Below, piece by piece: positions 3,038 to 63,970 of a stretch of 64,000 bases of DNA. Numbering within the stretch: the first letter of the stretch is position 1; each line of letters opens with the position of its first letter. The notes under the pieces were generated by a model. It saw only the letters and a list, made by a program, of their open reading frames with translations, had not been told where the DNA came from and did no database searches. The DNA comes from Telopea speciosissima. Lineage: Eukaryota > Streptophyta > Magnoliopsida > Proteales > Proteaceae. The stretch spans positions 2,682,927-2,746,926 of the forward strand of contig NC_057925.1 of the NCBI RefSeq assembly GCF_018873765.1. Reading direction: 5' to 3'. A program made the translations under genes and the position numbers.

Positions 3038-3255
3038 CCATAAAACAGCGGAAAAGGATTCTATCCAGCCTTGGCGGGAGCTGGACCGGCCAACCCCACT
3101 AAACCACAGCAAAAATAGGAGTGGGCTGGTCATTTCATAGATGGGTCCCACCTGGCCCCACATGTGAAATGACCACCCTCTATTTTTTAGATGGTTTCCA
3201 AGCGTTGGACTGTCTAGCTCCCGCCACGGCTGGACAGGAGCCAGGTCCATAAAAA
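3038..3255. mobile_element. MULE-type hairpin MITE (family with GGCGGGAGCT arms)
   Basis: A ~200-bp foldback element at 3047-3246. The arms pair through TATCCAGCCTTGGCGGGAGCT on the left and AGCTCCCGCCACGGCTGGAC on the right. Near-identical 9-bp direct repeats flank it (CCATAAAAC at 3038-3046, CCATAAAAA at 3247-3255). The centre holds a second palindrome, GGTCATTTCAT ... ATGTGAAATGACC. The element at 20755-20946 is the same family. Confidence 0.75.
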
Positions 3256-3389
3256 GCTGACCAATTTGGTTAAAAGGCCAACTAGTAGACATCCCTGAAT
3301 CCTGACCAATTTTATAAGACGGGTGAGTCTGATCACCCTACCGTATCCATTAAAATGTGATGTGGATCTAGGGATTCCCTTGAGTTATG

Positions 3390-3720
3390 GTAAGTAATTG
3401 TGGTCTCCATCTAGGGTTTGAAGAATTAGGCTCAGATCGATCAAGGCCTAGGTTGATCTTGATTCTGGTCAATCTGGAGCAGCTGATCTCGATTCTAGTT
3501 GATTCATAAGCCATTTCTAGGGTTAGGGCGGATTCTGACCTATTATGGCCGATGCCAATCCTAGTTCCGGCTGAGTTAGATGATAGAGTGACCAATTCTG
3601 ATCCCAATCGATCCACAAGCCATTTCTAGGGTTAGGGTAGAATTTGTTTAATTTTGATTGAATAATGTCATATTGATCGATTCTAATTGGAATAGGAACA
3701 AAATCAAGTACAACCGATCG
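3390..3720. repeat. Dispersed GATTC-rich degenerate repeat
   Basis: An array of loosely repeated words such as GATTCTGATC, CGATTC and TTTCTAGGGTTAGGG. ACAAGCCATTTCTAGGG-like blocks recur at ~3508 and ~3610. It codes for nothing. Similar tracts end in TTTTTAAA-type words elsewhere in the window (see 35965, 44080, 49865). Confidence 0.5.
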
Positions 3721-3800
3721 AGATCCCTACCTAATGCAGGTCTTGAAATTGTAAAACCGTTCAATTGATGGGTTGGTTATGGTTTTAAAATTGAAGACGT

Positions 3801-5153
3801 TTAATTAAAGGTTAATTTACTCATACCACCCTTGAGGTTTGATGAAAGGATAATTTTACCCCCCAGTTTTGAAAAATTCTGCGTACCCCCCTGAGGTTTG
3901 CAAATAGTAACAAATAAGCTCATTCCGTCAGTTCATGACTAACAGTGTTAAAAATAAGAGGTGAACTGACAAAATTACCCTTGTAAAAAAAATTAAAAAA
4001 TAAAAAAACCCTGCAATTTGGGGAAGATGAGTTGTAGGTATCCCAGATAACCCAGATGCCAAAAGCCCTGAAATCCATAACGCCTTTCATGGCTTTGAAG
4101 TAAAAGAACCTCAAGAGAAATTCCCAGAATTTCTTTCATCCAAAGGGCAAAACCACCCAAATGACCACATCTCAGGCAAAACAGCACCCTTGGCTCTCTG
4201 CTACTAAACCGAATGTATCAATTGATTCTAGTGGTGCCGGAATTTGAAAAGAAAAAGCAAATATTGACCGAAGAAAGGGTCGATATTGAGCAACTTGAGC
4301 TCTTCCAAAGATATTCCACCGACCTACTTAAACTATCCAAGTCTATTGGTATTCTCTCAGAACCAAGGTTTTAAGAATCGGTGAATCGGCTGATTCCGTG
4401 AGCAATCCCGGTTTCCACCAATCCGACAAGGCCCAAAACCCTAGGGTTCTTGAGCACTGGTTCTAAAGCCAAGTAAGCTTCTCGCAATTTCACTTTCTCC
4501 TCAACTGAAATTAGCCCATTAGAATTTCTTTGAAAATGAAAACAGGGTTTTAAGCAGTAAATTCTGAGATTCTTTCTCATCTACTTTTCTTTTTTTCATA
4601 TTTCAGGTAACAGGAAGTGTGTTTTTCCGTCAAGGTGAGTCTTAATTGATCGATGATTTCTTAAATTTATGGGTTAGTTCTTGTTGCGCTAATAGATGAT
4701 AATCTATGGTTTACTTGGATGAATGATGATGATGCAGCTCAGTGCTACAGGCAGGGCCTTGGGCATGGCTATGGAGTATATCGGTTCTACACTGGTGATG
4801 TTTATGTAGGAATGATGTTGAACGAAGGTAGGTCTTCCGATGTCCACGGGCGACATCACCATCATTCCCTTGCTCTGAGTCAGTGAGTAAATTACAAGAG
4901 TTTCAGGCTGCAACTCATCGATTGGGGAAGATGAGTTGCAGGTTTTTTCTTTTTTTCTTTTTTTTTCTCGCAAGGGTAATTTTGTCAGTTCACCTCTTAT
5001 TTTTAACACTGATAGTCATGAATTGACGGAATGGGCTTATTTGTTACTGTATGCAAACCTCAGGGGGGTACGTAGAATTTTTCAAAACTGCGGGGTAAAA
5101 TTATCCTTTCGTCAAACCTCAGGGGTGGTATGTGTAAATTACTCTTAATTAAA
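3801..5153. mobile_element. Pack-MULE (non-autonomous Mutator-like element) carrying gene fragments
   Basis: The element spans 3810-5144 (1,335 bp). Its terminal inverted repeats are ~174 bp (3810-3983 and 4971-5144) and agree at roughly 90% by eye. A perfect 9-bp target duplication, TTAATTAAA, flanks it at 3801-3809 and 5145-5153. Long terminal inverted repeats with a 9-bp duplication are diagnostic of Mutator-like elements. There is no transposase. The interior (~4030-4900) contains a MORN-repeat exon fragment and other exon-like sequence of unknown origin, so it fits the Pack-MULE class. Confidence 0.88.
4741..4828 (+). pseudogene. Captured MORN-repeat exon fragment inside the Pack-MULE
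   Basis: Between an AG-like acceptor (GATGCAG, ~4736) and a GT donor (GAAG|GTAGG, ~4828) the plus strand reads CYRQGLGHGYGVYRFYTGDV followed by YVG. This matches the MORN repeat consensus (GxGxYxxxxGxxYxG) as seen in plant MORN-motif proteins. Only this one exon is recognisable, and it has no start codon or partner exons. It lies wholly inside the 3810-5144 element, so it was most likely copied from a host MORN gene elsewhere. Confidence 0.65.
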
Positions 5154-5700
5154 TGATTTAAACCCAATGAGATTGTTTAATCGAATGAACCGTTTAACAC
5201 TCTTAAATGTACATAAATGTGTCAAAATAAATAAAAAAAAAACCCATTTATTGAAACGAATCGAACCATTTAAAATGAAACAACAAAACCGTTTAATTAA
5301 ATAGTTTAAACCGAACAGAACCATTTAAAACCCTTAGGATACTGTTTACAAAAATTAGAATCATATCGGCTGAATTGACCAATTTTAATCGAAATTGTCA
5401 TGACTGATCCTGATTTTGGACATTTTGGAGAAGTTGATTCTAGGGGTTTTAAGGCCGAATCGTTGGATTTTCAGATATGAGAAGCCGATTCTAGTGTTTT
5501 TTGGAACCGATTCTAATTGATTCTGAGACGTTCCGGATTGAAACCGTTCGATCCAAACTCCGAGTTTAAAATCGGGGTCAAATCTTGTTCCACTAACGAT
5601 AATGGCATTGTCTAATCGAACCGAAAATATGGAGCTTGGAGCCCTTGATTTTTAAATAGTCATCTTCCATTCTTCCCCAGAAGGCCATATCATATGGATC
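5154..5700. repeat. Degenerate dispersed repeat upstream of DUF538 gene 1
   Basis: Contains repeated GTTTAA/TTTAAACC words (5150-5340), typical of degraded hAT-type short elements. A GATTC-rich tract follows (5360-5580) and ends near GAGTTTAAAATCGG. No coding sequence was seen. Confidence 0.4.
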
Positions 5701-5719
5701 CTCTCTCTGTTTCCAAAAT

Positions 5720-5835
5720 CTTGATTCCATCTCTCTCTCTCTCCCTCTCTACTTTGAGCTCTGAAGCCTTTTATTCGGTTTCTTCTTCTTCGACACTGAA
5801 ACCCATCCTCTATTACCAGTAAAACCAATTGTGCA
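5720..5835 (+). promoter_or_regulatory. CT-rich 5' leader of DUF538 gene 1
   Basis: A pyrimidine-rich tract (CTCTCTCTCTCTCCCTCTCT at about 5732-5751) precedes the ATG at 5836 by ~85 bases. Such Y-patch sequence is common in plant core promoters and leaders. No clear TATA box was found. Confidence 0.35.
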
Positions 5836-8800
5836 ATGGATCCCTATTCGAAACTGCATATGGGTTCCTTTCTCCTCTTCTTGTTCTTCGCTTCTGCCCT
5901 CGCAATCTCATCCGTTTCGGCCTCTAATGGCATAACAGTCTACGAAATCTTGACCCAATATGGGCTACCGCGTGGCCTCTTACCTGACTCGGTGAAAAAA
6001 TTTTCTCATACCGAAGATGGGAACTTCGTCGTTGAATTGGAGAAGCCCTGTTACATTCAATTCGAAAACATGGTCTCCTATGATCAGAAGATCACTGGTA
6101 CGATTAAGTATGGTTCGATTACGAATCTAGACGGGATTAAAGTGAAGCGGTTCTTCTTGTGGCTCGACGTCCAGGAGATCAGGGTGGATTTGCCGCCTTC
6201 CGGTTTCGTATATTTTCAGGTCGGTTTAATCAACAAGAAGCTTGATGCTGGTCAGTTCCAGACTGTGCAGTCTTGCAAGGATGGTCTCTCCTGTCAAGGT
6301 TTTTGGAAGGATATTCTCAAGGTATGAGCTCTCCAATCTTGTTTGGCTTGAGAAGACTTGATAAGCTCAATATCCCTGGAACTCAATTGGAGATTTGTTA
6401 GGGTTTGATATTTGTATACTTCAGGGTGGAACACCAACGAAACTGGATAAATTTTTTAGTGCATAAAATCACTAAGAACTTATCGCAATTGGCATGAATT
6501 GAAAACTGAATACTTTGTTCATTAAAGTTCAACCTTTTTTCTTGTCTGACTGTTTCTTTGAATCAAAACGGTTAAGAAACCTGAAAACATGAGATATTCC
6601 GGTCCTTAAAAGGCTCTTTTAGCAGCAGAAATATGCTTGTGATTCTTTTTACAGTTTATCTTGAAATTGTTGGAGCGATATGGGGGTCAAATTGCTGGGA
6701 CAAGTATCCCATAAATACACAATCAACACCATATAAATAGAATGTCTTGAAGCTGAACTTAGGTATTTTATACAGTCATATCAGAATAGGACATCTATTT
6801 CCTGATATCTGTTCTATGGGTCCTGTATGTCTTGTTCTGTGTACCACTCTCTTTTTCTTCTTGAGAAGCATTAGTTGGTTGATAAGGTCTCCATCGAACG
6901 GCCAAAATTTTTACAGTAATGGTGTGACTCTTTCATTGTTCTAAACATTTATAAGCTTAATTTTTCTCATTAAAAGATTGGGTATCAGTTCACTAGGGAA
7001 CGGTTCTTGGGGGGATTGAATCAGGTCTTTGTTGATAGCGAGGAATTTGAGTCATTATACAAAGTTTATAGTTGGATGCAAGCTTGTTAGTTGCAAGCTA
7101 TAATGATTTTATATAATTGCAGTAGGGGAAGTATTGATAATATATTGTCTATTTTTTTATTTTGGGTAAATTACCTAGATTCACTAGATAAGAAAAAGTA
7201 TTACAACAACAGAAGAAGAAGTATTAGGGACTGCAAAATATTCAGAAGCTCATTTATTGTCTATATTATTATTATTTTTTTTTGGGGGGGGGGAATGGTC
7301 CATCTAGTTGTGTTTATAGCTTATTGAGAAGAAGTATTAGGGACTGCAAAACATTCAGAAGCTCATATCCAATTCTTAATGATCTTGAATCTTCAATTTC
7401 CATGTAGTTGCTACCCTGGAAAGCATGGATATATTTTTCTCAACGAGTGATCAACTCAATTACTTTTTGTATACATGCCAGGTTGTTTTGGTTGGCCCAT
7501 TTATGGATCAGAAGAATGTATTATTCTCAAGTTCATTACTGTAGTGACTTTCATTATTTGATATCAATTTTACTCGTTATGTTGTATGTTTGTTGCATAG
7601 TTATAACATGCTTAATTTCTATGCAATATGACTAGAGATAGAAATGCAGAAACATATGAAGTGTGGAAAATTGGTCCTGTTAAATGTGAGTTTTTGGCCC
7701 AACATATCATGTGGTATATATAAGAAATGACATTATATTATTGGTAGATTCTCCTTAAAACAGTAACATGGTTGTCATTGGAAGCTGTTGATATGACTAG
7801 CCTAGAGGTTATCTGGTAACAACAACATTGAACCATGTATTGGAGATCGGTAACTGGTGTACCTATTTGAAGACTAATTGAGAAATAAAATAGTTAATGT
7901 TGACCAGTTACTTTTTACTGTTGTTTTATAATATGTTCCCTTGGTCTTGTTTTGAGATTAAGGGATGGTATATGCAGAACTGAAAATGATGGATCGTGTC
8001 ATGGAACCTGAAGTTTCAAAAAAAATTCAGAGTATTTGTGTGGTTCTATGTTGTGAAAGGTAAAGACGAGTTTTTTGTTAGTATTTGTGGTGAGGAGATA
8101 TGTAAAAGCATCATAAAGAGATTTTGAGGAACTGTTGTCCATTAAATGAACTAGGTTGAAGCAGTATAAAGGATGGGGACTTTGCATTTGCCCATATGAT
8201 CCACCTTTTTAATGACAAGCTGGGAATTTCTTATGAACATACCATCCAAAACAAATATGGTACTGGTGGTTGATGTTTTGAATGGTCCAGCCATCCATTC
8301 TGATATTCCATGAAAACCATGACTATTTATGAGGGAAAGTTATGCTTCACTCTCTGAAGAATGAGACAAAGGAATGGAAAATGATAGTATACTTGCCATA
8401 CATTTTAGATGAATAGGTGTTCCTTTTTTCTTGGTATCAACATGAAAAAGTGTTGAATCGCTTATTACATGAATTTCATTCAATTAGATAGTTGATTTCT
8501 AATGTTATTTATCATCATCCAGTTGCGTTAAGTTCATGCGGTGGTATATAAATACACGTGTAGACACCTATCTCTGTATTTCACAAACTGTTAGTAGCAA
8601 AGCGTATCTGCATGTCCCATTTGCATTAGTTGTGTGATCAGACTCTTATTTTGAAAAGATTGTTTGAGAAGTACAAGAAAAGACATCCTCCCTCTCTAGT
8701 CATTTTGGTCCTTCAAAATTCTGTTGTTTGATTATTCAGAGATTGAAAAGAGGAGATATGGATTATTATTATTATAATCTAAAGGTGTTTGGAAATATTT

Positions 8801-9120
8801 GCCTCCATGCCGATGTATCTTCTATGGCAAAATAGTCAAAACATGGAAAAAATACGTTCTTTACTCATTGGAGGCCTTTTTCACCTAACCCATGCTGTAG
8901 GTTCCCCTGCGGTGCTGTACAGGCATTACGTGACGTGACATGTCTAAATTTGTGTTCTTATTCATGGATGTATTTCTTATGCAAACCTGTTTATATATGT
9001 GGATTGTCTAACCAGGATAATAGAAATGAAACATAATTTTTGGCTAACTTGGTTTAAATGTTTGTGATTTTGTAGGTTCCCACTCCCATTAAGGAAGTCC
9101 CAATGCTACTAACAGAGTAA
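5836..9120 (+). CDS. DUF538 family secreted protein, gene 1 (two exons)
   Basis: CDS join(5836..6321, 9076..9120), 176 aa. Residues 1-30 form a signal peptide with a leucine/phenylalanine-rich core (GSFLLFLFFASALA). The rest is one DUF538 domain: YEILTQYGLPRGLLPDSV, the FxVELEKPCYIQFENMVSYD block, then ITGTIKYGSITNLDGIKVKR and FFLWLDVQEIRVDLPPSGFV. The exon 1 frame would run only two residues past the GTATGA donor. Exon 2, after TTTTGTAG, supplies VPTPIKEVPMLLTE, which fits the C-terminus of this subfamily. The intron is 2,754 bp, phase 0. DUF538 proteins are plant-specific with unclear biochemistry; Arabidopsis SVB affects trichome growth. The sequence most resembles, from memory, At1g55265. 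Gene structure is confident; function is not known. Confidence 0.88.
6322..9075 (+). other. Long intron of DUF538 gene 1
   Basis: A 2.75-kb phase-0 intron between GTATGA and TGTAG. It is AT-rich with no recognisable gene. A 33-bp duplicated stretch (GAAGAAGTATTAGGGACTGC) occurs at ~7212 and ~7328, and a T-run/G-run junction lies at 7275-7293. Confidence 0.7.
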
Positions 9121-9751
9121 GGAAAGACAAACTCGACCTTTTTAAAAGTATATACAAAATATCCAGATCATTGGCATGAAAATGCTAATGCTCAGTGAAA
9201 TGGGAAAACCAAGCATTCTTGTGATGGGTTTTGTTTTAGCGTCTTTTACCGGAAAAACCACCAGAAACAGTTGGACCGGTATATAGTTATACGAGAATAT
9301 GTAAGTTCTACAATCTTAGTCCTTGTTATGTTTTTAGGCAGTCTTTGTTTTCTTGTTTTGGGACTTTATGTAATGTAACTACTACCAACGTAGATGTTGA
9401 AGAAATTTATACCCATTGAGGGCTTGATTTGCTTAAATGATGGACAACCTTGAAGGCCTGTAAATTTTTAAAGAAGTCATTTATATGCATCTATACTTCA
9501 TCTTTTGTACAGGTAGACTCTAATATTATATGCCTTTCTATTGGTTAGAATGAGATATATCTCATTTTCTTTTAACATAAACATCAATAACCTATTAGAT
9601 AACCCTCATTTGTAGTGAGCATATAAAACATTTAAATTCATGCATTGACTGGTGCTGAGTGAGAAGACTGGGAACTATCATATAAGGGGAACGTTTTCAT
9701 CCACCCTAGGTTCCTCTGTACCCACCACTGTGATCTCATCATTACTCCCCC

Positions 9752-9928
9752 CTTATATTGGGATTGGGCTCCTCTGCAGTGCAGCACGGTGTGTAGTGCA
9801 CATCCAACGGCTGGGCTGCCACGATGCACACGTCAGCACACACCGCAACATGCATTGTGGCAGCCCAGCCATTGGACGTGCGGCTGCACATTGTGTTATG
9901 CTGCAGAGGAGCCGAATCCTCTATATTG
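9752..9928. mobile_element. Hairpin MITE (GGATTGGGCTCCTCTGCAG ends)
   Basis: A 159-bp foldback at 9761-9919. The left end GGATTGGGCTCCTCTGCAG is the near-perfect reverse complement of the right end CTGCAGAGGAGCCGAATCC. The arms continue through GGCTGGGCTGCCACGATGCA and TGCATTGTGGCAGCCCAGCC. Imperfect 9-bp flanks (CTTATATTG and TCTATATTG, 7 of 9) suggest Mutator-type insertion. Confidence 0.7.
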
Positions 9929-11426: not shown

Positions 11427-14400
11427 TTAGAGCCCCAACTCTTTTTTCAACTGAGCAAGAGTGGCTTCAATCTCAAAGATATGGTTTTCAATGCTATTCT
11501 TGTTGCCTGCTCTGCTTTGGTCATCTCCCTTACTATCTGACCCAGATTTTGAATATGGGATACCACTGGGAGGCGTTTCATTGTTTCCAGCTTCAACATT
11601 GGGATCTGTGATGTTCAGCTCATTCTCTAGAAATTCCATAAATTCTTCGCCAATGTCCTGCAAAATGAACTTTTGAGTAGTTTTCTCTACAAACAGTCCT
11701 TACTTATGGTCTACACCATGTTACTTCTTCATTTCTGTATGTTGAGTAAACATGCATGCCTAAAAGGTTATATTTACTTGGCCAATCCAAGAAAGTAGAG
11801 ATGAGAGATTTATTCAAGAGGTAAATACTGAATGTAATAATGTCTTACTGCCAACTCCTCCCATAAGCTCTTTGGCTTCCCTTGTGAACCAACATTAGCT
11901 TCCCAGTTACGGAATTCTACTTGGAGGTCTCTAAAGAAGTCCCCTGTCAAATAAGCAACATGAAGATTTATGAACTGCCAAATACAAGGTTTCTTCATAA
12001 TAGTGAAAATTCTGGGGGAAAAAAAAGAGAGACACAATGCAAGACAAATTCAGTCTCCATTTTGTCCCATGAAAAGGATGATTCTACCTATTGTTATTTG
12101 AACATCCCTCAAAAAATTACCTGCAGAAATAAACGGATTTAAGTATATGAATTTAAGGAAAAGATGCCCATCTGAAGACAAGAAACTACAAGGTGAGGTC
12201 ATGAGGTCAGAAAATGTTTTCTTCGACATTTCTCCCCCCCCCCCAAAAAAAAATCTCTTAGATAGCTTCAAGGACAACATTACACCATACTATAAATCTA
12301 AGATACAGATCTGGTGGCAATTATAGTCTACGAAGGCAATCACAATAAGTGTGGCTCATAAACAAAGCAACAGAACTAACCACTAGATGGATTCCACATG
12401 GGAGCCCTCTTACAAAAGACAACAAAAGAGGGACAGAGGGCAGGCCGGAGTGAGGGGGATCAGCGGGTAAGATGGTTATGATTATCTAATTGATCGATTT
12501 TCACTTCAAGAGATCCCAAATATGAGATCCATCTTATGGGATGAGATCCAGTTGTAGCGTTATTGCACCTGAAATACCAAAAAGGGGTGGGGGGTGGGGT
12601 GGTGGGGGGTGGGGTGGCAAAAGATATGTACGGATCTCCAAGGGCATATGATTCAGTACCAAAACCATAGAACTCCTCCTCATCTTGATTTATTTGAACT
12701 GAGTTGGAATAACCGGATCCACTATTTCCAAAGTCATATCTCTGCCAAGATCCTGAGGTCAATAATGTATTGTACGCATGTTTTATCATCATAAATTTCT
12801 CCTGAGCATTTGCCTGTACAAGTGAAAGCCAGGAACTTTTTAAGGAAATTATACCTAAGCAGTACATGCTACTGTGAAATACAGCAAAAAAACCCATAGT
12901 GCTTTTAGATTTTAAATTTTATTTCATTCAGTAACTACAAGCAGTTCTCCTCACTCCCCATGCAGGATGTGCATGTGTGAGAAAGAAGCACATAAATTGA
13001 ATCCGGGTATATAAATGAAATATACACAGCACATGCATTTAGTTTCCAACACTTCATGGATCCCTGAGACTCCAGGAGATTTCCTTCAAGAAGGAAACAA
13101 GGCAATCCTTGGCATTGCTATGCTTATTCCTTCACCATTAACTATGTGATACTCCATGAGGATGCAAGGAGAAACAAGTGCATCTGACATAACATAGGCT
13201 TATGTCTGAGGCACAGAACTTTGGAGAAAATATGAGAAGGTTTGAAACAAAAAAGGGCTTTTGCTAACAAATATAAACACATTTAGCTAAGTTTCTGTAA
13301 GCCTCTAACTGAGAGGCAAAGATGTAACCTATGACCCAATGCAAAGAACCTGCTCCAATTCACAGCATTGGGAAGCCTTAAAATAGTGACACAAATCCTC
13401 CTCGGCAAAGAGATATTCTTTGATGTGAAAGATACTCTTCCCAAAAGGTCAGAGGTGTTGGGTGGTCTTTTTCATCAGACATCAACTCCACTTTTAGACA
13501 TTGTCTGAGATTGGGATACCCAACATACAAGAACATCAAATGCACTTTTAAAGGCCTAATTACTACTCCGGAAAAAGTTCTCTGTCCGGGAGTGTGGCCT
13601 ACGCTAGCACTCCCATGAGTCTATCTCTCTCCTCCCCATGTGAAAAGACACCTCTGTCACCTTGTTTTAAAGAGGAGAGAGATAGACAAATGGGAGTGCT
13701 GGCATAGGCCACACTCCCTTACAGAAAACTGCTTTCCCTTACTACTCAGTCTCAATATATATTGACTGAGCTTGACTGGAGTTGTAGCGGGCTGTGGGGT
13801 TATGTCCATCCATGGTTTCAAATATCGGGATCGGATTGGGCGTATCAGTTGGATGGGATTGGGATTGTCGGTCACTGATCCAGTCAAGTGCTGCGGAAGT
13901 CAGTTAGAGATCAGGCTGGGTTGGAATGGGATTCGCGACCACCAATCTGGTCTCTGATACCCGTCTTTAAATCCTTTTGACAATCATGAGTCCTCAAGGA
14001 AAAGCTCCCCTCTATTAGGGAGTAGTTTTCACGAAGAATACATCAAGAATGATCTGATCCATTGTTCTGCAACAACTTTCTCCCCCTTACTATTTATTTC
14101 ACTGGAAATTCTCCAAAAAAGTACATCTACCTCTTAGTTACTAGCATTGTTTGAAGTCTATCATGTCCACAACAAACACCAAGCGGTTGGGTAAACAACT
14201 TAGGTGGTTTTCTGGATTTGTCTCAGCTATCAAACACCCTCTAATTCAAAATTGCCTGGACACAGAGGATCTCTTAGACGACAACTCAGCCCCCATATTC
14301 ACATTAGTGGTGTTCTAGAAACCGCATCAAAAGTGTATGATAATCATCACTGCTCACCCAGACACCAAAGCAATAAGAAAGGGAAATCACCCAATTCTTA

Positions 14401-15278: not shown

Positions 15279-17253
15279 ATAAAAAAAGGGTAAAGCACAC
15301 GTACCCCCTATAATGCACTTAATATTCCTCGTACCCCTAAGCATCTGATAAGTCCACATATCACCCCTCAATATTCCACATACCACCCCTATTGTACCCC
15401 CTAATGCCAGATAAGTCCAAACTATTAAGTACCACCATTAAGTGTTAAAAACTTGACCATTTTACCCTTTGTTCCATTCTTATAAATTTGAAAAGATTTA
15501 ATTACCCTCACTTAGGTATTGCCCTAACCTAATTGAAAAAGACCATTTTACCTTTTGTTCTATTTTTATAAATATGAAAAGATCTAATTGCCCTCACTTA
15601 TATATTGCCCTAACCTAATTGAAAAAGACCATTTTACCCCCCAACTATTTGTTCTTAAAAACCAACCCAACCTAATATTACCGGTGCATACCCAGTGGAG
15701 AGAGCAACAAAAAGCTTGGGAGGAGAACCTGCTGCTCCAGCGAGGCGTCCAGCTCCCTGCTCCCTGCTCCGTCCACTTCCTTCCTTCTCCCGCGACGATT
15801 TAGGCCTGCAAGTAACTTCTTCTCAGCTTCTCCTTCATCTACTTCTTCTATGCTCTTTCTTCTTTGCTCCTTCTCTGTCTCTTCTTCTGCTTCGACTCAC
15901 ATTCCCTTCTCTGTTTCTACGTCTGCTTCGTCTATGTTCCTTCTTTTGGTTCTTATCTGCTCCATCGTTCTCTGCTCCTTCTTCTCCTTCTGATTTCCTT
16001 CTTATATTAAAGGGACATAATTTAAGGGAAAGAGACGATAGAATCTTCCAAGAGAAAGAAAATAAAAAAGAATTAAAAAAAAAAAAAAAGAATAAAATCA
16101 AAGAGAAAAAAGAAAATTTGAACCTAAAACAAGTGATTGATCCTAGCTACTCTATCGAATTAAAACGATTGATTCTGTAGCCTGAATTGAATCGAACCCT
16201 AATCATTTTGGTTTTTGAATTAGGGTTTTATGTAACTGACAGATCCTAAAACAAGCTGGACCTTTCAAAACCATCAAAACCAGAAGAAAACCCAAAAAAA
16301 ATCGATTCAAACTATTAGTTTCAGTATTTTTTTTTTTAAAATATATATGGGTAAAATAAAAACTTAACCGATAACAACACGATAAGAGTCCGTTAACAGT
16401 TTGATTTGGACTTTACCCAATTTCACTCCAAAACTGATTCAGAACCTTATCATAACCTGACCAAACTGAGTGGCACCCACCCCCAATGATCAAGTTTCCA
16501 TAGCCTCAATTCTCAAACATCTCACGGTTTCACGAGGCTACCACTTCCCTAGCTGTTTGCTCACTTTGACTTACTCCATTTCGGTGAGAGTATCGATCTT
16601 AGCTAGAAGAAGCATGATACAGGTTGTTGATACTTGATATATATATTTTTAATCTGAATGTAATTTGGTCTCTAAATAAAAATAAAACCCTTATTTTCCT
16701 TCTACTCAAGATCTCCCGGGTTGTATTAGGGTACCCTGCAGGCATAGATCGTCGCCAGAGAAGGAAGGAAGTGGACGGAGCAGGGAGCAGGGAGCTGGAC
16801 GCCTCGCTGGAGTAGCAAGTTCTCCTCCCAAGCTTTTCGTTTCTCTCTCCATTGGGTATGCAGCGGTAATATTAGGTTGGGTTGATTTTTAAGAACAAAT
16901 AGTTGGGGGTAAAATGGTCTTTTTCAATTAGGTTAGGGCAATAGGTCTTTTCATATTTATAAAAGTAGAACAAAGGGTAAACTGGTCTTTTCCAATTAGG
17001 TTAGGGCAATACCTAAGTGAGGGTAATTAAGTCTTTTCAAATTTATAAAAATGGAACAAAGGGTAAAATGGTCAAGTTTTTAGCACTTAATGGTGGTACT
17101 TAACAGTTTGGACTTATCTGGCATTAGGGGGGTAAAACAGGGGTGGTACGTGGAATATTGAGGGGTGGTACGTGGACTTATCAGACACTCAGGGGGGTAT
17201 GAGGAATATTGGATGCATCATAGGGGGGTACGTGTACTTTACCCAAAAAAAAA
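15279..17253. mobile_element. 2-kb non-autonomous MULE with ~500-bp inverted repeats
   Basis: Spans 15288-17244. The ends GGGTAAAGCACACGTACC and GGTACGTGTACTTTACCC are inverted. Homology between the arms continues for about 500 bp, to ~15800 on the left and ~16740 on the right (the shared stretch includes AGGCGTCCAGCTCCCTGCTC). The flanks are A-rich 9-mers differing at one base (15279-15287 and 17245-17253). Each arm carries an internal ~85-bp subrepeat with TTGCCCTAACCTAATTGAAA. No transposase is present. The ~900-bp interior has a CT-rich tract (15815-16000) that looks like a gene leader, but no identifiable protein. It sits ~135 bp upstream of the J-protein ATG. Confidence 0.85.
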
Positions 17254-17264
17254 GTATATAAAAA

Positions 17265-18620: not shown

Positions 18621-18622
18621 TT

Positions 18623-19648: not shown

Positions 19649-19856
19649 TTAGCATCAGGATCGTGATCCTCTATAGCGCATTGCCCGTAGCGGCTTGAGC
19701 GGCACACAAATAAGGGGAGGTCCAATGACCACCTTACCCCCGCTCAGGCAAGGTACTCGGGCAGGGGTAAAGCGGTTATTGCGCCTCGTCTTATTTGTGT
19801 GCCACTTAGATCGCTACGGGCCGGCACGCCGTAAAAGATCTAGATTGTTAGCATCA
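19649..19856. mobile_element. MULE-type hairpin MITE (GTAGCGG family)
   Basis: A 190-bp foldback at 19658-19847 with a perfect 9-bp target duplication, TTAGCATCA (19649-19657 and 19848-19856). The arms pair as GCCCGTAGCGGCTTGAGCGG against CACTTAGATCGCTACGGGCC. Its centre carries ATGACCACCTTACCCCC. A second copy lies at 32478-32661. Confidence 0.88.
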
Positions 19857-20745: not shown

Positions 20746-20955
20746 ACATAAAGGGGACTTGGATCTTGTGCAGCTGTGGCGGGAGCTGCACTTTGCAGCA
20801 CCAAAACCCACCCTGAATATAGGGGGGAGGTGGTCATTTCACACGTGAGGCCTAGGTGGGACCCACCTATGAAATGACTATCTTACCCCTATTTTTCTTG
20901 TTGTTTAGTGTGCAGCTCCCGCCACTACGGGATAAGATCCTTTTCCACATAAAGG
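20746..20955. mobile_element. MULE-type hairpin MITE (GGCGGGAGCT family, copy 2)
   Basis: A 192-bp foldback at 20755-20946 with a perfect 9-bp duplication, ACATAAAGG (20746-20754 and 20947-20955). The arms GTGCAGCTGTGGCGGGAGCT and AGCTCCCGCCACTACGG match the element at 3047-3246, including the inner GGTCATTTCAC ... TATGAAATGAC palindrome. Confidence 0.88.
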
Positions 20956-21214: not shown

Positions 21215-21429
21215 TTATAATTTGGGAAAGAGAATGTTACTTGAGCGTGTGCGGTGCGTTGCTCCTGTGGCAAGACCCAGGGAGACACAAAAATGGTAAA
21301 ATGATCACCACGCCTCCATGGAAAAGTAGAATTTCCTAGGGTGCGGTGGTCATTTTGTGCCTCTTATGTCTAGGCATAAGTGCAACGCACTTCACATGGC
21401 CATATATTTTTTTCTCTCCCTTATAATTT
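21215..21429. mobile_element. MULE-type hairpin MITE
   Basis: A 197-bp unit at 21224-21420 with a perfect 9-bp duplication, TTATAATTT (21215-21223 and 21421-21429). It carries AAAATGATCACCACGCC and GCGGTGGTCATTTTGTGCC as its inner inverted pair, and GTGCGGTGCGTTG/CAACGCAC in the arms. Confidence 0.83.
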
Positions 21430-21932: not shown

Positions 21933-22086
21933 TTGAATAATGGGAGAATGTTCTCTGTGCCGTAGCGCAGGCTACGCCCAGGCACATGGGCAGTCTTTGC
22001 AGGGGGCAGGGTGATCATTATGCTCACCCCCATGTGCCTGGGCGCAGCCTGCGTTGCGACACAGAGAACAATGGCCCTTGAATTTT
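21933..22086. mobile_element. MULE-type hairpin MITE (TTCTCTGTG ends)
   Basis: A 136-bp near-perfect hairpin at 21942-22077. AATGTTCTCTGTGCCG pairs with the right-end CGACACAGAGAACAATG, and GCCCAGGCACATGGG pairs with CCCATGTGCCTGGGC. The flanks TTGAATAAT and TTGAATTTT agree at 7 of 9. Confidence 0.75.
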
Positions 22087-28745: not shown

Positions 28746-28748
28746 CCC

Positions 28749-28916
28749 TCTATTGGGGAATTTTTATCCGCTACTGTGCACTACAGCGCTGCTGTGCCAT
28801 CGTGCGGCGTAGCAACGGACATATGTGCACAGCGGGCCCCACTGTGCTCACTTGGCCGCTGCTGCACCGCACAGCCGCACCTCTAGTACTGGAGCGGATA
28901 AAGGTCCTCAATTGGG
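28749..28916. mobile_element. MULE-type hairpin MITE (TTATCCGCT ends)
   Basis: A 150-bp unit at 28758-28907 with ends TTTTTATCCGCTACTG and GGAGCGGATAAAGG. It is flanked by TCTATTGGG and TCAATTGGG (8 of 9). GC-rich interior (TGTGCACAGCGGGCCCC). Confidence 0.7.
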
Positions 28917-29004
28917 GAGGAAAGAACGGAAAACACACCATCTTATGACAAAAGTTTTTGTGGATGACCGTGCAAAAGACCTGTGCACACCAAACCCCAG
29001 ATGC

Positions 29005-32470: not shown

Positions 32471-32670
32471 ATAACTCAGATCGTGATTTGGGTGCGCTAC
32501 TCGTAGCGGTCTAAGCGGTTCGCAAATAAGGTGCAATGCACTGATCGCCTTACCTTCATTCGGGCAAGGTGTTTAGACAAGGTAAGGCGATCATTGCGTC
32601 GTGCCCTATTTGTGCATCGCTCAGACCGCTACGGACAGCATGCCATAGAAGATCTGGATTGCTATAATTC
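32469..32670. mobile_element. MULE-type hairpin MITE (GTAGCGG family, copy 2)
   Basis: A 184-bp foldback at 32478-32661 flanked by CTATAACTC and CTATAATTC (8 of 9). The arms ACTCGTAGCGGTCTAAGCGG and CAGACCGCTACGGACAGCAT match the copy at 19658-19847. The centre is GATCGCCTTACC ... GGTAAGGCGATC. Confidence 0.82.
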
Positions 32671-32932: not shown

Positions 32933-33018
32933 TTGCTGATGGGTGACTCTATCATTCCGCCATTACCATCTTCATTACGAACCTTCATTGCACTCTTTTA
33001 AACTAAAGTCCTCATCCA

Positions 33019-34587
33019 ATGGGCCTCTGGTTCATCATCCTCTTCTCCATTTGTCTCTGTGCAACCCTCAAATTCATACTAGTTCTCCTCTCCCCCACCA
33101 TTAAAACCAAACACACCAATAAGCTCTCTCTCCCCTCAGGACCCCTGAAACTACCCATCATTGGCAACTTCTTTTGGCTCTACAAATCTTTCTCTGAAAT
33201 CGAATCAATCCTCCACAACCTTCGACAAAAGTATGGCCCCATTGTCACCTTACACATTGGTTCACAACCTCTCATCTTCATCTCAACCCCCTCTCTTGCT
33301 CATCAAGCCCTAATCCAAAACGGCGCTACATTTGCCGACCGTCCACCGGCACCTCCCTCCAACAATATCATCACTAGTAACCAACACAACATCACATCCG
33401 CTACCTATGGTCCTCTCTGGCGAATCCTTCGTCGGAATCTCACCTTAGAATTGTTTAATCCTTCTCGAGTAAAATCCTATGCTAACACTCGCAAATGGGT
33501 GTTGCAGATAGTAAAAACGCAGCTCAAATTCCATGTTAAATCCAACGAGTCTGTGCATGTGATGAAACAATTCCAGTATGCCATGTTTTGTTTGTTGGCC
33601 TTCATTTGTTTTGGTGAGAAACTTGATGAGAAAACCATCACAGAGATTGAAGATGTAGAGAGAAGCCTCCTCTTAAATTTTGTTGGAATGAATGTCCTTA
33701 CTTTCTTACCCAAGTTAGGGAAGATCATCTTCAGAAAACAATGGCTAAAGCTTCTCAATTTGCGTCGTAGACAGGAAGATGTAGAGATCCCATTGATAAA
33801 AGCTCGTCGAGAACTGAAGGAGAAGAAAAAAGAGAATCACGTCGTCCAAGATGAAGCCTCCATCCCCTACGTCGATACATTGTTGGATCTTCAAATCCCA
33901 GATGAATCAGAAGGAAGAAAACTCACAGATCAAGAGATTGTGAGTCTCTGCTCTGAATTTCTGAATGCTGGCACAGACACAACCTCCACAGCATTACAAT
34001 GGATAATGGCGAATTTGGTGAAACACCAAGAAATCCAAGAGAAGCTTTACACTGAGATCAAAAGTGTAATAGTTTTGAATAACTCATCAAGTGAAGAGGA
34101 AGAGATCAGTGAAGAGGATTTGCAGAAAATGCCTTATCTGAAGGCTGTAGTGTTGGAAGGGCTTAGGCGTCACCCACCAGGTCACTTTGTGTTACCACAT
34201 GCTGTCACCACAGATATTGTGTTGGATGGCCATGTGATACCAAAGAATGCTACTGTGAATTTTATGGTGGCTGAGATGGGTAGGGATCCAATGGTTTGGA
34301 AAGATCCAATGGAGTTTAAACCAGAGAGATTCTTGGGTGATGGAGGAGAAGTAGTGTTTGATATAACAGGGACAAGGGAGATTAAAATGATGCCTTTTGG
34401 TGCAGGGAGGAGGATTTGCCCTGGGCTTCGGTTAGCTATGCTGCACTTAGAATATTTTGTGGCGAATTTGGTCAAAGATTTCAAATGGACGGCTGTGGAT
34501 GGTGATAATGTTGACTTGTCAGAGAAGGTGGAGTTCACTGTCGTGATGAAAAACCCATTGGAGGCTCATGTCTCCCTCAGATCATAG
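33019..34587 (+). CDS. Cytochrome P450, CYP89A-like, intronless
   Basis: 522 aa in a single open frame. An N-terminal membrane anchor (residues ~2-28) is followed by the proline-rich hinge LPSGPLKLPIIGNFFWL. The I-helix oxygen-activation motif AGTDTT is at 317-322. The K-helix ExxR is Glu380-Arg383 (EGLRRHPPGHFVLPHAV). PERF is at 435-438. The heme loop FGAGRRICPG has the heme-ligand Cys467. All signature residues are present and length is normal, so it should be an active ER-bound monooxygenase needing P450 reductase. The lack of an intron and the HPPGHFVLPHAVT wording fit the CYP89A family. Arabidopsis CYP89A9 acts in chlorophyll breakdown, but the substrate here cannot be told. Close relatives in CYP77 are the main alternative. 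Confidence 0.93.
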   Translation: MGLWFIILFSICLCATLKFILVLLSPTIKTKHTNKLSLPSGPLKLPIIGNFFWLYKSFSEIESILHNLRQKYGPIVTLHIGSQPLIFISTPSLAHQALIQNGATFADRPPAPPSNNIITSNQHNITSATYGPLWRILRRNLTLELFNPSRVKSYANTRKWVLQIVKTQLKFHVKSNESVHVMKQFQYAMFCLLAFICFGEKLDEKTITEIEDVERSLLLNFVGMNVLTFLPKLGKIIFRKQWLKLLNLRRRQEDVEIPLIKARRELKEKKKENHVVQDEASIPYVDTLLDLQIPDESEGRKLTDQEIVSLCSEFLNAGTDTTSTALQWIMANLVKHQEIQEKLYTEIKSVIVLNNSSSEEEEISEEDLQKMPYLKAVVLEGLRRHPPGHFVLPHAVTTDIVLDGHVIPKNATVNFMVAEMGRDPMVWKDPMEFKPERFLGDGGEVVFDITGTREIKMMPFGAGRRICPGLRLAMLHLEYFVANLVKDFKWTAVDGDNVDLSEKVEFTVVMKNPLEAHVSLRS

Positions 34588-44644: not shown

Positions 44645-44785
44645 ACATGGTTTGAGGAATCAGGCCAAATTGGATTGGAACAGAATCAGCCGATTCTAGT
44701 TTTGAGTCTAGTCAATTTGAATCGGTTGATTAGTACTAGATTTCTAGGGTTCAATGGAGGCCAATTACATTGTCGATTCGGATCA
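44645..44785. repeat. Dispersed GATTC-rich repeat
   Basis: GAATCAGGCCAAATTGGATT, GAATCAGCCGATTCTAG and TTTCTAGGGTTC words. It directly adjoins the hairpin element at 44788. Confidence 0.45.
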
Positions 44786-44787
44786 GG

Positions 44788-44940
44788 ATCGTCTCTAGGG
44801 AGCCCAGCGCTCAGGGTGCACCCAGGGAGCATCCAACGGTTGAGTTGTGCCGCACACATCTCGGTGCATGCCTAGGGATGTGTGTGGCACAGCCGAACAG
44901 TTGGATGCACCTTGGGCAAGTTGGGCTCCTTGGAGACGAT
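44788..44940. mobile_element. Hairpin MITE (ATCGTCTC ends)
   Basis: A 153-bp foldback. The left end ATCGTCTCTAGGGAGCCCA pairs with the right end TGGGCTCCTTGGAGACGAT. Inner pairs include GGAGCATCCAACGG/AGTTGGATGCACC and GTGCCGCACACATC/GATGTGTGTGGCAC. No target duplication was recognised. Inner words resemble the element at 9761-9919. Confidence 0.72.
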
Positions 44941-45089
44941 TTAAATTCTTGCCGATTCTGCCTACTTGAACCATGCTCTGTAAGTAAGGGTGTTAAACAA
45001 AGAGGAGATAATGCTCTCAAACAATATTGTACAGTCGATATCTTTTCTTGCTTAATATATATTTTCTCTTTTCATAAAATAAAAAAACA

Positions 45090-46766: not shown

Positions 46767-46961
46767 TCTTACTATCAATTCGACTCCTCTACTTCCACCT
46801 GCCCCTACTGTCATGTGCGCCCCACACACAAGCAAGGCGGAATGTACCGCCTTACTCCTGCCCGAGCGGGGGTAAGGCGGTACTTTTTGTCGTGCTTGTG
46901 TGGGGGGGCACACGATAGTACCGGGCAGGCGGAAGTAGAGGAGTCGGATCCCTCTTACTAC
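46767..46961. mobile_element. MULE-type hairpin MITE (GACTCCTCTACTTCC ends)
   Basis: A 177-bp near-perfect foldback at 46776-46952 flanked by TCTTACTAT and TCTTACTAC (8 of 9). CGACTCCTCTACTTCC pairs with GGAAGTAGAGGAGTCG. The centre ACCGCCTTACTCC/GGGGTAAGGCGGT repeats the core seen in unrelated hairpin families. Confidence 0.85.
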
Positions 46962-49860: not shown

Positions 49861-49864
49861 TCAT

Positions 49865-51452: not shown

Positions 51453-51459
51453 CAATTAT

Positions 51460-53990: not shown

Positions 53991-53994
53991 ACAG

Positions 53995-54294: not shown

Positions 54295-54309
54295 GTCTGC
54301 GTCTGCATT

Positions 54310-55020: not shown

Positions 55021-55028
55021 CTTACCCA

Positions 55029-55760: not shown

Positions 55761-56428
55761 TGTACAGACAAGTAAATGTTTAACCCATCGAATCAAAACA
55801 AACAGGAGAATGTGAACTTTTTTCTTCCTGAAAGTGCTCTGGATTTATTTGAGTCACTCCAAATATTACAATGACAGTAAACCCCACCAGAAAAAAAAGG
55901 GCCAAGTACTCAACAAGCAAGAAGATGAAAAATCCAAAACAAAAGGACATGACCACAGACATGACTGGTCCCGCTCATCAAAATAGGTTGAATAGAACAT
56001 GCCTCTAAGAGAAAAAACTGCCAAAACTGGAGCTTCCCCTCCCTTTCATTACATATCCTACAACCTATGACCCACCCAGATTTCAAAAGGGTAAAAAAGA
56101 CAAACTAAACTCAAAATACACTAAATCTGTTAGCTGTTTCTCACTGCAACCACCACCTCTCCCCCAAAAAAAACCCCATCATCTCAATGAGAAGTTTCAC
56201 CATTTCTTCTAAGCATCAAACACATTGAAGGGTGGGGTTGGCACCAACCCCTAATTCCTACATAAAAATTTTATATAAAAACTTCCAACAGCTGGAGCTG
56301 GACAACAAGAAGGGGCTTCAACAACACTCCTGAGGTAAAAGAATTATACCTTGTAAACCTATAAACTAAGAAAAAGATGTATGCACCATTCTGGGGAAGA
56401 AAAGAGTCCCTTTAAATACTAGGGATGT

Positions 56429-59664
<3,236 letters not shown>

Positions 59665-60173
59665 TCATCAGCAAACAATCATGATGCACCATATACTTAC
59701 ACAAATTTAATGTATCGTGACCACGCCAGTCTGAACAAGAAAACCGTTATGCTCATCATATCATCACGTTTTCAAAATAAGCACATAAATATCTAAGAGG
59801 CAGCATGCATAGCAAAGCCAACAACCAATCTGAATAAGAAATACAAGATTATAATAAACTATGAGAAAGCAATAAAGACACAAAGTACCAGCATATACTG
59901 TTGTGAGCCTTGCTACTCAAGTTAAACAAATGCAATCCAGGGTTCCAAAACCCGACTCAGATCACTTTTGGGCCCAGCCAGAAAACAATCACTCAACAAT
60001 TAAATGTAATGGCAAACTCGTAAATAATCAGTGTGTTTGACGTGCTATTTGATAATCAAAAGTGAAATATTGAGGAGGGGCATACTAGGAAGAGGTGATA
60101 AAATAAGGACAACAAGGGATAAAAGAAATAGGCAAGGGCAGTTTTGGAAATAAGGAAATAGATATGTTACAAA

Positions 60174-61042
60174 CAACCAATGAAGGTTGTCTTCAACCTT
60201 TGAGCTCAAACCAGAACCAGCAGAGGTTGCTTCAATTCCAAGTGAAGGTTCTCACTACTTAAGCCTTGGAATGGTCTGAAATTGCAAGTGAAGGTCGGAA
60301 ACTCGATGGTCTCTCGATTCCGACCGATAGATACCTCAAACCCATCAAACAGGAGCTGTTGTTCCTATAGCTTAGACCTGGCGATAGAAGTTCAGGTTAG
60401 TTCTGAGATGTGTTAAGATCTATCAGCAGAGAGAATTTTCTAGATCTAGATTCCTGAGTTTCAATCACCTTAGGGCAGTGATTCATGCCCCAAATCTTCA
60501 AGCCCAATCAATTACCTCTCAACGGGTTCGAAACAGTTCTATTGGAACAGAATATATTGGCAACAAAAACAAAGAGATGAAATAACAAGAGAGGAAGAAG
60601 ATTAAAGAGAAAAAGAAAATACCAGCAAGTAAGAGAGACAAAGGTAAGAATAAGAAAGGAGAAGAAGAAAAAGAATATAGGAGAGAGAAGCGAGGCAAGG
60701 GAGAGAACGGCAACAAAGAAACTCATTCTTCATTCAAAATCTCAAATCTATCATTTATTGGTTACAACCTTGTATTTAAGGAAGATAATAAAAGACTCCA
60801 AATCCTTAACCAAAACTAAAATAAAACTTGACTCTAACTTGGACTCTAAAACTGAAATAAAATCCTAAGCCAACTCTACCACTAATTAGCCTATTAAACT
60901 AAAACAGAAGATCCAAATAAAAATTTAATTAATAAATAAACTAAAATATCCTACTGGACCCAAAAAACAATTGGATAAAGTTCATCTCCATCTGGGTTCC
61001 CCAAACCGGTCCAAGGAATTGCTCATGCATCACTAGTCCAAC
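60174..61042. mobile_element. Possible LTR-type fossil
   Basis: Runs from TGTTACAAAC to CTAGTCCAACA, has the AT-rich leader composition of plant long terminal repeats, and has no coding region. No convincing target duplication was seen. The limits and the call are tentative. Confidence 0.25.
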
Positions 61043-61164
61043 ATAATTATAAGTAATCTTTATCAACCTTTCTTCCATCTCAAGTATACAATGCCACAAA
61101 CTTGACTATCAAAGTTAAACCCCAAGTGAACATCAAAGCATGAATCCATGTGGTTAGTAGTCAC

Positions 61165-61500
61165 CATGGTTCAAGGAATCGGAATCAAATTCAATTAGAT
61201 GAATGGGCTGAGCCGAATCCCACAACCCTTTTTTAAATCGCCCATTATTCATGCTTTGATCTTAATTTTTTTGGCTCTGATTTTCTTCTTTTAGTCAGTA
61301 AAATAGCATCAACGAAACTTACCTCAATACCACTTCTAGCAAGATCCAAATGTTTATTGAATAAAAAATTCCAAAAAATACAAAATTTGGGAAATCTTTG
61401 CTTCTTCCCAATTCTAATTTCTAAGGTACAAACCGATTCTGGGCCAAGTCCAACCAACTTCAATCTGTATTGGATGGGAATCTAAGGAGGCCAATCCCAT
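61165..61500. repeat. Dispersed GATTC-rich repeat
   Basis: CATGGTTCAAGGAATCGGAA starts it and CCTTTTTTAAATCG lies near 61230. A second part continues with ACCGATTCTGGGCCAAG to ~61500, where the 148-bp repeat begins. Confidence 0.4.
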
Positions 61501-61845
61501 ATCCAATTCCAGGTACTTAAACCTTGGTAGTAACTCGTTCGTAACTAAGGCACAAGTTCAATTAAAGATAGAATAATGAAAGCCCAACATGTCATTTCAA
61601 ATAGAAAAATCCTTGGACAATTGTTTGTTATTGGCCAGACAATTCCATATCCAATTCCAGGTTCTTAAACCTTGGTAGTAACTCGTTCGTAACTAAGGCA
61701 CAAGTTCACTAAAAGATAGAATAATGAAAGCCCAACATGTCATTTCAAATAGAAAAATCCCTGGACAATTGTTTGTTATTGGCCAGACAATTCCATATCC
61801 AATTCTAGGTTCTTAAACCTTGGTAGTTATTCATTCGTAACTAAA
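61493..61845. repeat. 148-bp tandem repeat, ~2.4 copies
   Basis: ATCCAATTCCAGGTACTTAA begins at 61501, with repeats at 61649 and 61797, exactly 148 bp apart. The copies are ~97% alike by eye, and the third is partial. Each contains ACTCGTTCGTAACTAAGGCA and TTGTTATTGGCCAGACAATT. Confidence 0.88.
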
Positions 61846-63320
61846 CACCTTTTTTTTTCGGAGGGAGAGGAGAAGCATAACATTGTCTCTGTTAAGACTA
61901 GGAAATATGGTTATTAAGAAAGTTACTAACCCATCACTAGTTAGCAAGACATTTTCCTAAATTATTCACAGGCAAAAAACACTTTCTTGGAAGATAAACA
62001 CCCTAGTAAAGCAGAGTCTTCTGAAGTGCACCGATTTTTATTCTTTTGTTTTTTAATGGATTGATAATTACAAAATACTTCTGGGTTACGTAAGGAGACG
62101 ATTAGATTCATATCTGGGGAAGATTTCTCTTCTTTTTCTTTCTTTTTTTTTGGGGGGGGGGGGGGAGGAGGAGGGGCTAAAAAAATAAAATTGAGAGGGT
62201 TTTTTTTATGGTTGTGGACCATTGCAAGGTTGTAGCATTAAGCAAAATGCTGGTAAGATTAAACGTCACGCCTGCTGCAGTTGCGTACTTGCATTAGCAT
62301 GGTCTATCATTTCCTTCTCTAAGGTATGATCCCTTCTCTTCTTTAGTTCTTTTTTTCTTCTTTCTTTCCAGTCTTATTCTTTCCTTTTTCTTCTTTGTTT
62401 TTTTCCTTCTTTGTTGTTATTTCCTATTACTGTTTCCATACTATAAGATCATTGGGCCAGTCCAACCATGCTATCACAACTGCATCACTGCCTTCTGAGA
62501 GTTACAATCTGGATCATTAGAGCTCGTGGTATGTGTTATCAGTTGTTCGGCATTGATCTTGGTAGTAAATTGCAGCTTCCAGTGAATTTTAGTCCTCAGA
62601 ATACCTAAGTCCTCTTGTGTACTAATTTTCTTATTATAAAACCTAACACATTTCCTTTTTCAAAACTTACCGCTGGAGAGAAAGAGACAGAGAGAGAAGA
62701 GTGGGGAAACTCATGGTATAGGAATAGCTATACAAAGCAAACCATGAAGCATACTTATGTCCAAAGGAATAGAATAAGCCTCCTTATAACTAGTGTATTG
62801 TAACCAAATAACCCTTAGTAATAATATATTGAAGGTAATCCATTAATATATCTTCTTAGTTAAGAGACCATATTCTGTCTTACAAATAAATGCGTCCAAG
62901 CATATTATCATCATTTGATTCTTTATCCTTAAATATTTCTGTGTCCACTATAAAATTCTCAATAAGGGGCATAACCTGTACATAGGAGAATAAAGGTCTT
63001 ATGTGGTTACATAACCACTTGGCCAGACACAATTATAATACTGCTAGTCACCCACCCCCTCCCCCTCCCCACACACACACACAGAGGAGCGTGTGTACCT
63101 CGGTGGTTTAACAAATAACTCATGTTATATCAAAGTAGACCTTATAAGAGGCAATCATCCAGCATAAAGATGGGAAGTGATTAAAGGTGAGCAGTTATAA
63201 CCAGACAAACAAGACTGACCCTCACGATAACAAATGCAACCCTAAACTTTGGGCATGTAAAGCATTCTGCTGAATAAGGAAAAATATTAAGCGGACATGA
63301 GGAAGGAATAGCACATTAAA

Positions 63321-63447
63321 AGACCTCCCACAGCAAGTGCCAAGGGCAGAATTAAATCATGGAATTCCACAAACAGAACAATACAGACCTCCCACAGCAA
63401 GAGCCTAGGGCAGAATTAAATCATGGAATTCCACAAACAGAAGAATA
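63321..63447. repeat. 65-bp tandem duplication
   Basis: GACCTCCCACAGCAAG at 63321 recurs at 63386. Both copies run through GGGCAGAATTAAATCATGG and AATTCCACAAACAGAA with only a few base differences. Confidence 0.85.
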
Positions 63448-63829
63448 CCCATTTAAGGGATAATGTGCACACCAATAACATCAAAATAAACATCATTTCT
63501 ATAGATCCAAAGAGGCACCAACTCCACATACTTGTTTCTTTTTCCTAATGATAAGCATAAGAAAAAGAAAAAAAGAGGGGGTTCCCTATCAAAGAAGAGG
63601 GAAAAACACACTGAATATATCCACAGATTGCAACTGTCATGATCCACAATTCTTAAAGATGCACTTCTAAAAAGCAGCTAAACGAAGGTAGTGTGCAAGC
63701 AAGAAGCATCTATAAATCAAGTATCAACAATATGTGAATAACAGAAACATAGTTATCGTCGTAATTTACATAAACAATGTAAGCAGTCATTCCATAATCC
63801 ATGTACAAGGAACAGCCAAGCATGAATCG

Positions 63830-63970
63830 TTATCCCCTCCAATTCCTCCAATTCCTCACATGGGGGTGGAAATGACCACCCTACCCCCCCGCCCGAAAAC
63901 ACTGCCAAAGGTGGTGTCCACTTCCCCCTATTAGAGGAATTGGAGGTGCCCGCGAATTGGAGGTGATAAT
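63830..63970. mobile_element. Hairpin MITE (TTATCMCCTCCAATTC ends)
   Basis: A 141-bp foldback. TTATCCCCTCCAATTCC on the left pairs with GAATTGGAGGTGATAA on the right. The centre is AAATGACCACCCTACCCCCC, the same core as in other hairpin families. No clear target duplication was found. Confidence 0.72.

Follow-up and report, generated by a model that had tools for sequence, protein, structure and literature searches.

How do foldback elements with different arms come to hold a similar word inside? We address this question in a 64,000-nt stretch of DNA from Telopea speciosissima (hereafter the window), whose genome comprises 823 Mb in 1,287 contigs. A first-pass annotation of the window had described hairpins resembling miniature inverted-repeat transposable elements (MITEs) that shared one central core within non-matching ends. 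We find that the core is a two-part motif, AAWGAC-N5-TRCCCC, that usually keeps a set distance to the termini, which have a cryptic 16-bp tip in common, and suggest that it may be a subterminal protein-binding site of a Mutator-like transposon lineage.

The shared core is a two-part motif

The words quoted in the first-pass annotation were present at or near their places, except that the element at 20755 contains GGTCATTTCAC and GAAATGACT rather than GGTCATTTCAT and GAAATGACC. A common core does exist far beyond chance, with the exact 16-mer ATGACCACCTTACCCC occurring 655 times genome-wide and its reversed control not at all, but the unit had to be redrawn: the exact quoted word was dropped as too narrow because the spacer varies. 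The near-invariant unit is AAWGAC, 5 bp, then TRCCCC, a bipartite 17-bp motif with a nearly free spacer, in which ACCTT, GCCTT and ACCCT are merely common spacers and lie outside the invariant unit. Genome-wide word counts, which are lower bounds and were each compared with a reversed-pattern control, gave 5,045 versus 0 for the 17-mer AATGACCRCCYTRCCCC, 15,012 versus 73 for AAWGACC-N4-TRCCCC, and 8,732 versus 116 for the non-overlapping set in which position 7 is not C, the last two together amounting to 23,744 matches in 823 Mb versus 189. When the gap was widened by 2 bp in the set without C at position 7, matches fell to background (189, versus 365 for the control).

The spacing is equally strict. 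For sampling we used 20 stretches from elsewhere in the genome (200 kb), their positions chosen by hand and blind to sequence rather than by a random generator, which with the window make a 264-kb set; adding the flanks of loci L001–L030, which were selected by the core word, after masking 260 bp at each anchored core gives a 347-kb set. A histogram of the gap between AAWGAC and TRCCC over the 347 kb, from 0 to 29 bp, peaks at 5 bp with 50 occurrences, and no other gap exceeds 6; in the 200 kb outside the window, the corresponding counts are 23 and at most 3. Leave-one-out scoring recovered the motif letter at positions 1–6 and 12–16 in 36 of the 36–40 sites and at position 17 in 36 of 50, with the third letter being A in 10 of 37, whereas the modal letter at spacer positions 7–11 was found in just 16–22 of 36. 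A listing of 182 sites, taken entirely from the beginning of one contig, contains 80 distinct 5-nt spacers. Such conserved flanks around a free middle would not be expected from descent alone. No description of the motif letters was found in the literature searched by sequence words, and the window had 0 matches to a known RNA family at gathering score.

The motif is concentrated in hairpins

Hairpins of the 264-kb set were counted as carrying the two-part motif when at least 11 of its 12 positions matched, with 30 permuted motifs as control. The motif was carried by 20 of 41 hairpins, versus an average of 0.03 hairpins for the permuted motifs (three pairs among the counted hairpins overlap one another), and its density was 3.27/kb within hairpins and 0.086/kb elsewhere. 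Because the word had first been noticed in the window, we report the two parts separately: 5 of 16 hairpins in the window carry the motif, as do 15 of 25 outside it, where the densities are 4.00/kb inside and 0.082/kb outside hairpins. Neighboring sites within 200 bp of one another are convergent in 5 cases, divergent in 1 and tandem in 5, too few to interpret. On contig C1, three same-strand sites with the same spacer lie 130–131 bp apart (4035138–4035415) and may form a small tandem array. Other spacers are found at sites in further, non-hairpin contexts.

Target duplications place the site at a set distance from the terminus

Exact end words of five families were counted genome-wide (B, 590; C, 411; D, 65; F, 523; A, 194 and 17 for two versions), with 0 for the controls. 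When 90 hairpins at all loci were tested for target duplications, 15 passed, with 9 bp in 11, 10 bp in two and 8 bp in two; three of the 15 were judged to be other kinds of hairpin. Both hallmarks of Mutator foldback MITEs are thus present, namely a target site duplication of 8–11 bp and long terminal inverted repeats over most of the element, and the 9-bp duplications point to Mutator. In the B family, 5 of 20 copies have a perfect 9-bp duplication and 4 more have one mismatch (6 of 20 under a stricter rule, directly after CCC); in an end-anchored alignment of B copies, the site is visible by eye in 20 of 20, in some with several changes.

We then scanned around sites for 9-bp duplications only, with the site start 30–95 bp from the end. 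Duplications with inverted ends were found at 38 of 124 sites (30 elements), compared with 2 of 248 random positions. Of these finds, 18 are from L001–L030 and 7 from L051–L070 (selected by B-type ends), the window and the 20 stretches supplying the other 13; with many loci preselected by core or B ends, 38 of 124 is a biased rate. In 32 of the 38, the site starts 58–75 bp from the end (58–59 bp in 11, 64–68 bp in 18, 74–75 bp in 3). Elements of the B family (~137 bp) have one central site 58–62 bp from both ends, F elements (~167 bp) a single midway site 74–77 bp from both ends, and full-length A elements (188–192 bp) a site 64–68 bp from the end, mostly one per arm among those examined. The idea that the core is tied to base pairing was dropped, given one central site in B and F and mostly two in A. 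At locus L042, an inverted pair of AAATGACTAATATACCCC (1351 and 3129, ~1.8 kb apart) probably marks a second long-armed element.

A common tip precedes unrelated filler

Ends were compared between families assigned via end words and, in a second test, without family labels (row L007 left out); both tests include D and one G element, entered manually. Between families, the outermost 16 bp match at 0.490 versus 0.262 when permuted (0 of 5000 permutations), and columns 17–56, compared without gaps, are at the null level (0.252 versus 0.255 shuffled). Without labels, 1,252 end pairs with unrelated arms match at 0.490 over the tip versus 0.260 shuffled. T10 and T15 of the 16-bp signature are present in all 62 duplication-set ends of 31 elements. 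The arms of the elements do differ, as had been noted, but their ends are not unmatched: the part that differs is the middle of the arm, and what had been taken for dissimilar ends around a common inside was filler behind a tip that is itself common.

Gapped comparison of 40 bp of outer arm, using hand-made D and F representatives, gave p = 0.001 for B-F, 0.001 for A-C and 0.004 for B-D, all uncorrected for the number of pairs, and no kinship for B-C, A-F or C-F. Part of the arm diversity is therefore old divergence. A single family aligning end to end, by which the first-pass annotation would have been refuted, was dropped, since columns 17–56 are unrelated in ungapped comparison despite the B-F, A-C and B-D similarity. 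The element plan is thus one of common tip, free palindromic filler and common site.

Elements and sites in the window

An inverted-repeat search of the window (arms of at least 25 bp, no more than 400 bp between arms) recovered the hairpins named at 3047, 19658, 20755, 32478 and 46776; that at 63830 was recovered by a second hairpin search, and that at 21224 by neither. The elements and their sites are as follows, with strand given for sites.

3047–3246: D-like foldback element, 9-bp target duplication with one mismatch (CCATAAAAC/CCATAAAAA); one degenerate site per arm in reversed orientation (CCCC side facing the ends)
13569–13738: F-type foldback element, 9-bp target duplication TTACTACTC; one degenerate site (10/12) starting 75 bp from the left end
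15288–17244: 2-kb element with long inverted arms, labeled a Mutator-like element (MULE) in the first-pass annotation; the putative target duplication falls in A-runs
19658–19847 (190 bp): A-type foldback element, 9-bp target duplication TTAGCATCA
19724–19740, plus strand: site AATGACCACCTTACCCC of the 19658 element, 66 bp from the left terminus
19764–19780, minus strand: second site AATAACCGCTTTACCCC of the 19658 element (11/12), 67 bp from the right terminus
20755–20946 (192 bp): D-type foldback element, 9-bp target duplication ACATAAAGG
20873–20889, plus strand: site AATGACTATCTTACCCC of the 20755 element, reversed, CCCC side 57 bp from the right terminus
20822–20838, minus strand: partner site AATGACCACCTCCCCCC of the 20755 element (10/12), CCCC side 67 bp from the left terminus
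21338–21354, minus strand: degenerate site AATGACCACCGCACCCT in an E-type element near 21224, for which a clear target duplication was looked for and none found
22003–22019, minus strand: site AATGATCACCCTGCCCC in a B-type hairpin (arms 21942–21990 and 22029–22077)
32478–32661: A-like foldback element, target duplication CTATAACTC/CTATAATTC with one mismatch; degenerate sites on both arms, one at 32579–32595, minus strand, scoring below 10/12
46775–46952: A-like foldback element, 8-bp duplication TCTTACTA; degenerate sites on both arms, one at 46869–46885, minus strand
63824–63975 (152 bp): C-type foldback element, 9-bp target duplication GCCAAGCAT
63871–63887, plus strand: site AATGACCACCCTACCCC of the 63824 element, 47 bp from the left terminus

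The repetition of the word in the arms of the 15288 element, read here by eye, holds: they contain four exact and five near copies, whereas hairpins carry just one or two. Exact two-part words (16 positions) lie at 15624 on the plus strand and at 17036, 16990 and 16922 on the minus strand (5' ends), and near copies at 15453, 15492, 15538 and 15578 (plus) and 17075 (minus); the copies are 39–68 bp apart and their spacers differ.

Other hairpins have a different center. CATCCAACGG is the central word of two core-less window hairpins (9755–9926 and 44780–44948), with related words on the right arms. Its distance is 50 bp from the duplication-set left end in 44780–44948 and 46 bp from the left edge in the 9755 hairpin, for which a target duplication was not found. 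ATCCAACGG occurs six times in 264 kb (reversed, 0), two of the six in hairpins. We take the CATCCAACGG/ATCCAACGG word to resemble the mitosis-specific activator (MSA) element bound by MYB3R factors. Hairpins of the G family, at 28747–28917 in the window and at L037:5050–5259 and L042:3985–4165, also have no core and have a CCATGTG/GGGCCCCACATG-like center; two of the three have the common tip signature, and the third is without a clear target duplication. Amid the hairpin elements lies a 526-amino-acid open frame (33007–34587) that is cytochrome P450-like by eye.

A putative subterminal binding site

The first-pass annotation had left open whether the core is a functional site or an old core around which new ends are acquired. 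We favor the former because of the fixed gap, the free spacer, the fixed distance to the terminus, the recurrence in differently built carriers and the repeats in long arms. Our own version, which we hold tentatively and at slightly less than an even chance, is that a Mutator-like transposon lineage would use the core as a subterminal, two-part site for protein binding. A Mutator-like transposase would hold the site through its DNA-binding domain, or a partner protein from the same element would do so, and the catalytic part would act on the common tip. Elements that retain tip, distance and site could then be mobilized in trans, and the filler would need only to hold the distance and usually also the foldback, leaving it free to turn over between families. 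A search of the genome gave 150 MULE transposase-domain matches among 150 scored of 828 candidates, which speaks in favor of such a lineage.

Several observations weigh against this proposal. Six of the 38 duplication-bounded finds have the site outside 58–75 bp (47, 47, 47, 48, 55 and 85 bp, the last from a mis-set terminus). In the D type (192 bp), each arm carries a reversed site, whose CCCC side is 57 bp from the end in one arm and 67 bp in the other, and in the C elements measured a single site lies off center (67 and 94 bp in L016). Copies in the 15288 element start ~165 bp from the end, five of the nine being near rather than exact matches. The motif also occurs beyond hairpin elements, with 22 sites (at least 11/12) outside detected hairpins versus a permuted mean of 3.03. 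Nor is the site required by every tip-bearing element, because site-less families with the same tip exist (28758–28907, 44780–44948 and L042:3986–4164). No full-length autonomous element with tip and site turned up, transposase genes with termini not having been examined. An association between the motif and MULE domains did not emerge either: the first 5 Mb of contig C1, where site listings are complete at ~1 site per 28 kb, contains only two listed MULE places, from whose proximity no conclusion follows. At one of these (C1 1069276–1073474), convergent sites with the same spacer (1069276 and 1070311) lie 2.9 kb from a MULE match at 1073190 with a 672-amino-acid open frame, which could be chance.

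Comparison with known systems

A conserved center with exchanged ends is familiar from CORE-SINE type retroelements, but these are RNA-polymerase-III retroelements with an unrelated mechanism. The DNA transposons below, among which Galileo, Mutator and Muta1 offer precedents for the proposed site, are compared through excerpts of the papers cited.

In the foldback element Galileo, the THAP domain of the transposase leaves a footprint at +63 to +80, and tandem repeats in the long arm hold further sites (PMC3688188). The likeness is one of position, a site ~60–80 bp from the terminus and beyond a short conserved tip, together with the additional sites in a long arm; Galileo belongs to the P-element superfamily of Drosophila and its binding was shown, whereas ours is putative. 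MURA binds a ~32-bp motif inside Mutator ends (PMC3310237). Maize Mutator shares with the present elements the superfamily, long inverted ends, target duplications of 9–11 bp and a motif within the ends that is bound by protein (putatively so here); it differs in that binding was shown for MURA, and in that the site described here is common to families with unrelated arms. Muta1, a mosquito foldback MULE, combines subterminal repeats with a predicted FLYWCH zinc finger (PMC5225508); it too is foldback and Mutator-like, with target duplications of 8–9 bp, a short terminal motif followed by subterminal repeats, and nonautonomous kin with other interiors, but its 12-bp repeats, as excerpted, lie within one family and are not common to several. 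An mPing study reports, in its excerpted text, no common internal promoting sequence between two MITEs (PMC9921582), so internal effects need not be sequence-specific.

Alternative explanations

The chief rival comes from the VANC anti-silencing system of Arabidopsis VANDAL elements, by which a VANC-like transposon protein would bind the motif and demethylate all carriers in trans. The motifs bound by VANC21 and VANC6 are short and build up as tandem repeats in Mutator-like noncoding DNA, those of VANC6 being found in an unrelated element as well; their function is loss of DNA methylation (excerpts of PMC5735166). The exact and near copies repeated in the arms of the 15288 element would fit such a short tandem motif amplified in Mutator-like noncoding DNA, as would a motif that is optional and found in both orientations in differently armed elements. 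The VANC motifs, however, are contiguous 8–9-mers with different letters (YAGTATTAY or AGTTGTCC/AC, neither of which AAWGAC-N5-TRCCCC matches), and anti-silencing has no need of a set distance between site and terminus in hairpins, so we consider it unlikely. That distance is equally unexplained if the motif is a host transcription-factor site, for instance of WRKY type, spread by the elements for expression or open chromatin. The left half, AATGAC[C/T], does include the W-box TGAC[C/T] (as worded in an excerpt of PMC2390551), but the A at the third letter in 10 of 37 sites breaks TGAC, and a rigid 17-bp two-part site is long for a host factor; this explanation strikes us as improbable.

Plain common descent would make the families branches of one old foldback element, with the core as its slowest part and no present function. 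Families A, B and E agree, by eye, in extra letters beside the core (CCCAGACACA..GTGCAATGACC), and the partial relatedness of the B-F, A-C and B-D outer arms suits such an origin. Drift, however, predicts a spacer as conserved as its flanks, against 80 spacers in 182 sites; the motif also occurs in other builds (15288 and the L042 inverted pair) and reversed in D, and columns 17–56 are unrelated between families when compared ungapped. We therefore rate descent alone as rather unlikely. Exchange, in which recombination or template switching repeatedly attaches new arms to an old central module, would account for unrelated arms around a common site and for A and B agreeing beside the core when the ends of A and F do not. 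Yet the examined termini carry one cryptic signature, all 62 duplication-set ends included, so complete new ends have not been acquired; it is the stretch of arm from tip to site that has changed, and the earlier suggestion of new ends around an old core is not favored as worded. No chimera with arms of two families was noticed, although no dedicated search was made, and exchange seems to us quite improbable.

Implications for Mutator-like elements

Set beside known subterminal sites, what is new about the putative binding site is that one such site appears common to families with unrelated arms; a literature search, which was not exhaustive, found no description of MITEs with common interiors and differing ends. 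A more speculative extension, which we regard as possible and doubtful, is a modular plan of 16-bp tip, free palindromic filler and an exchangeable "address" word ~40–75 bp inside that would choose the trans-acting protein, with AAWGAC-N5-TRCCCC as the main address and CATCCAACGG maybe another. MITE classification normally rests on ends. If the binding-site reading is true, a short two-part word would predict common mobilization across families that end-based annotation has split, the divergence of arms beside a constant tip, distance and site would be explained, and plant Mutator-like elements would have a testable recognition code.

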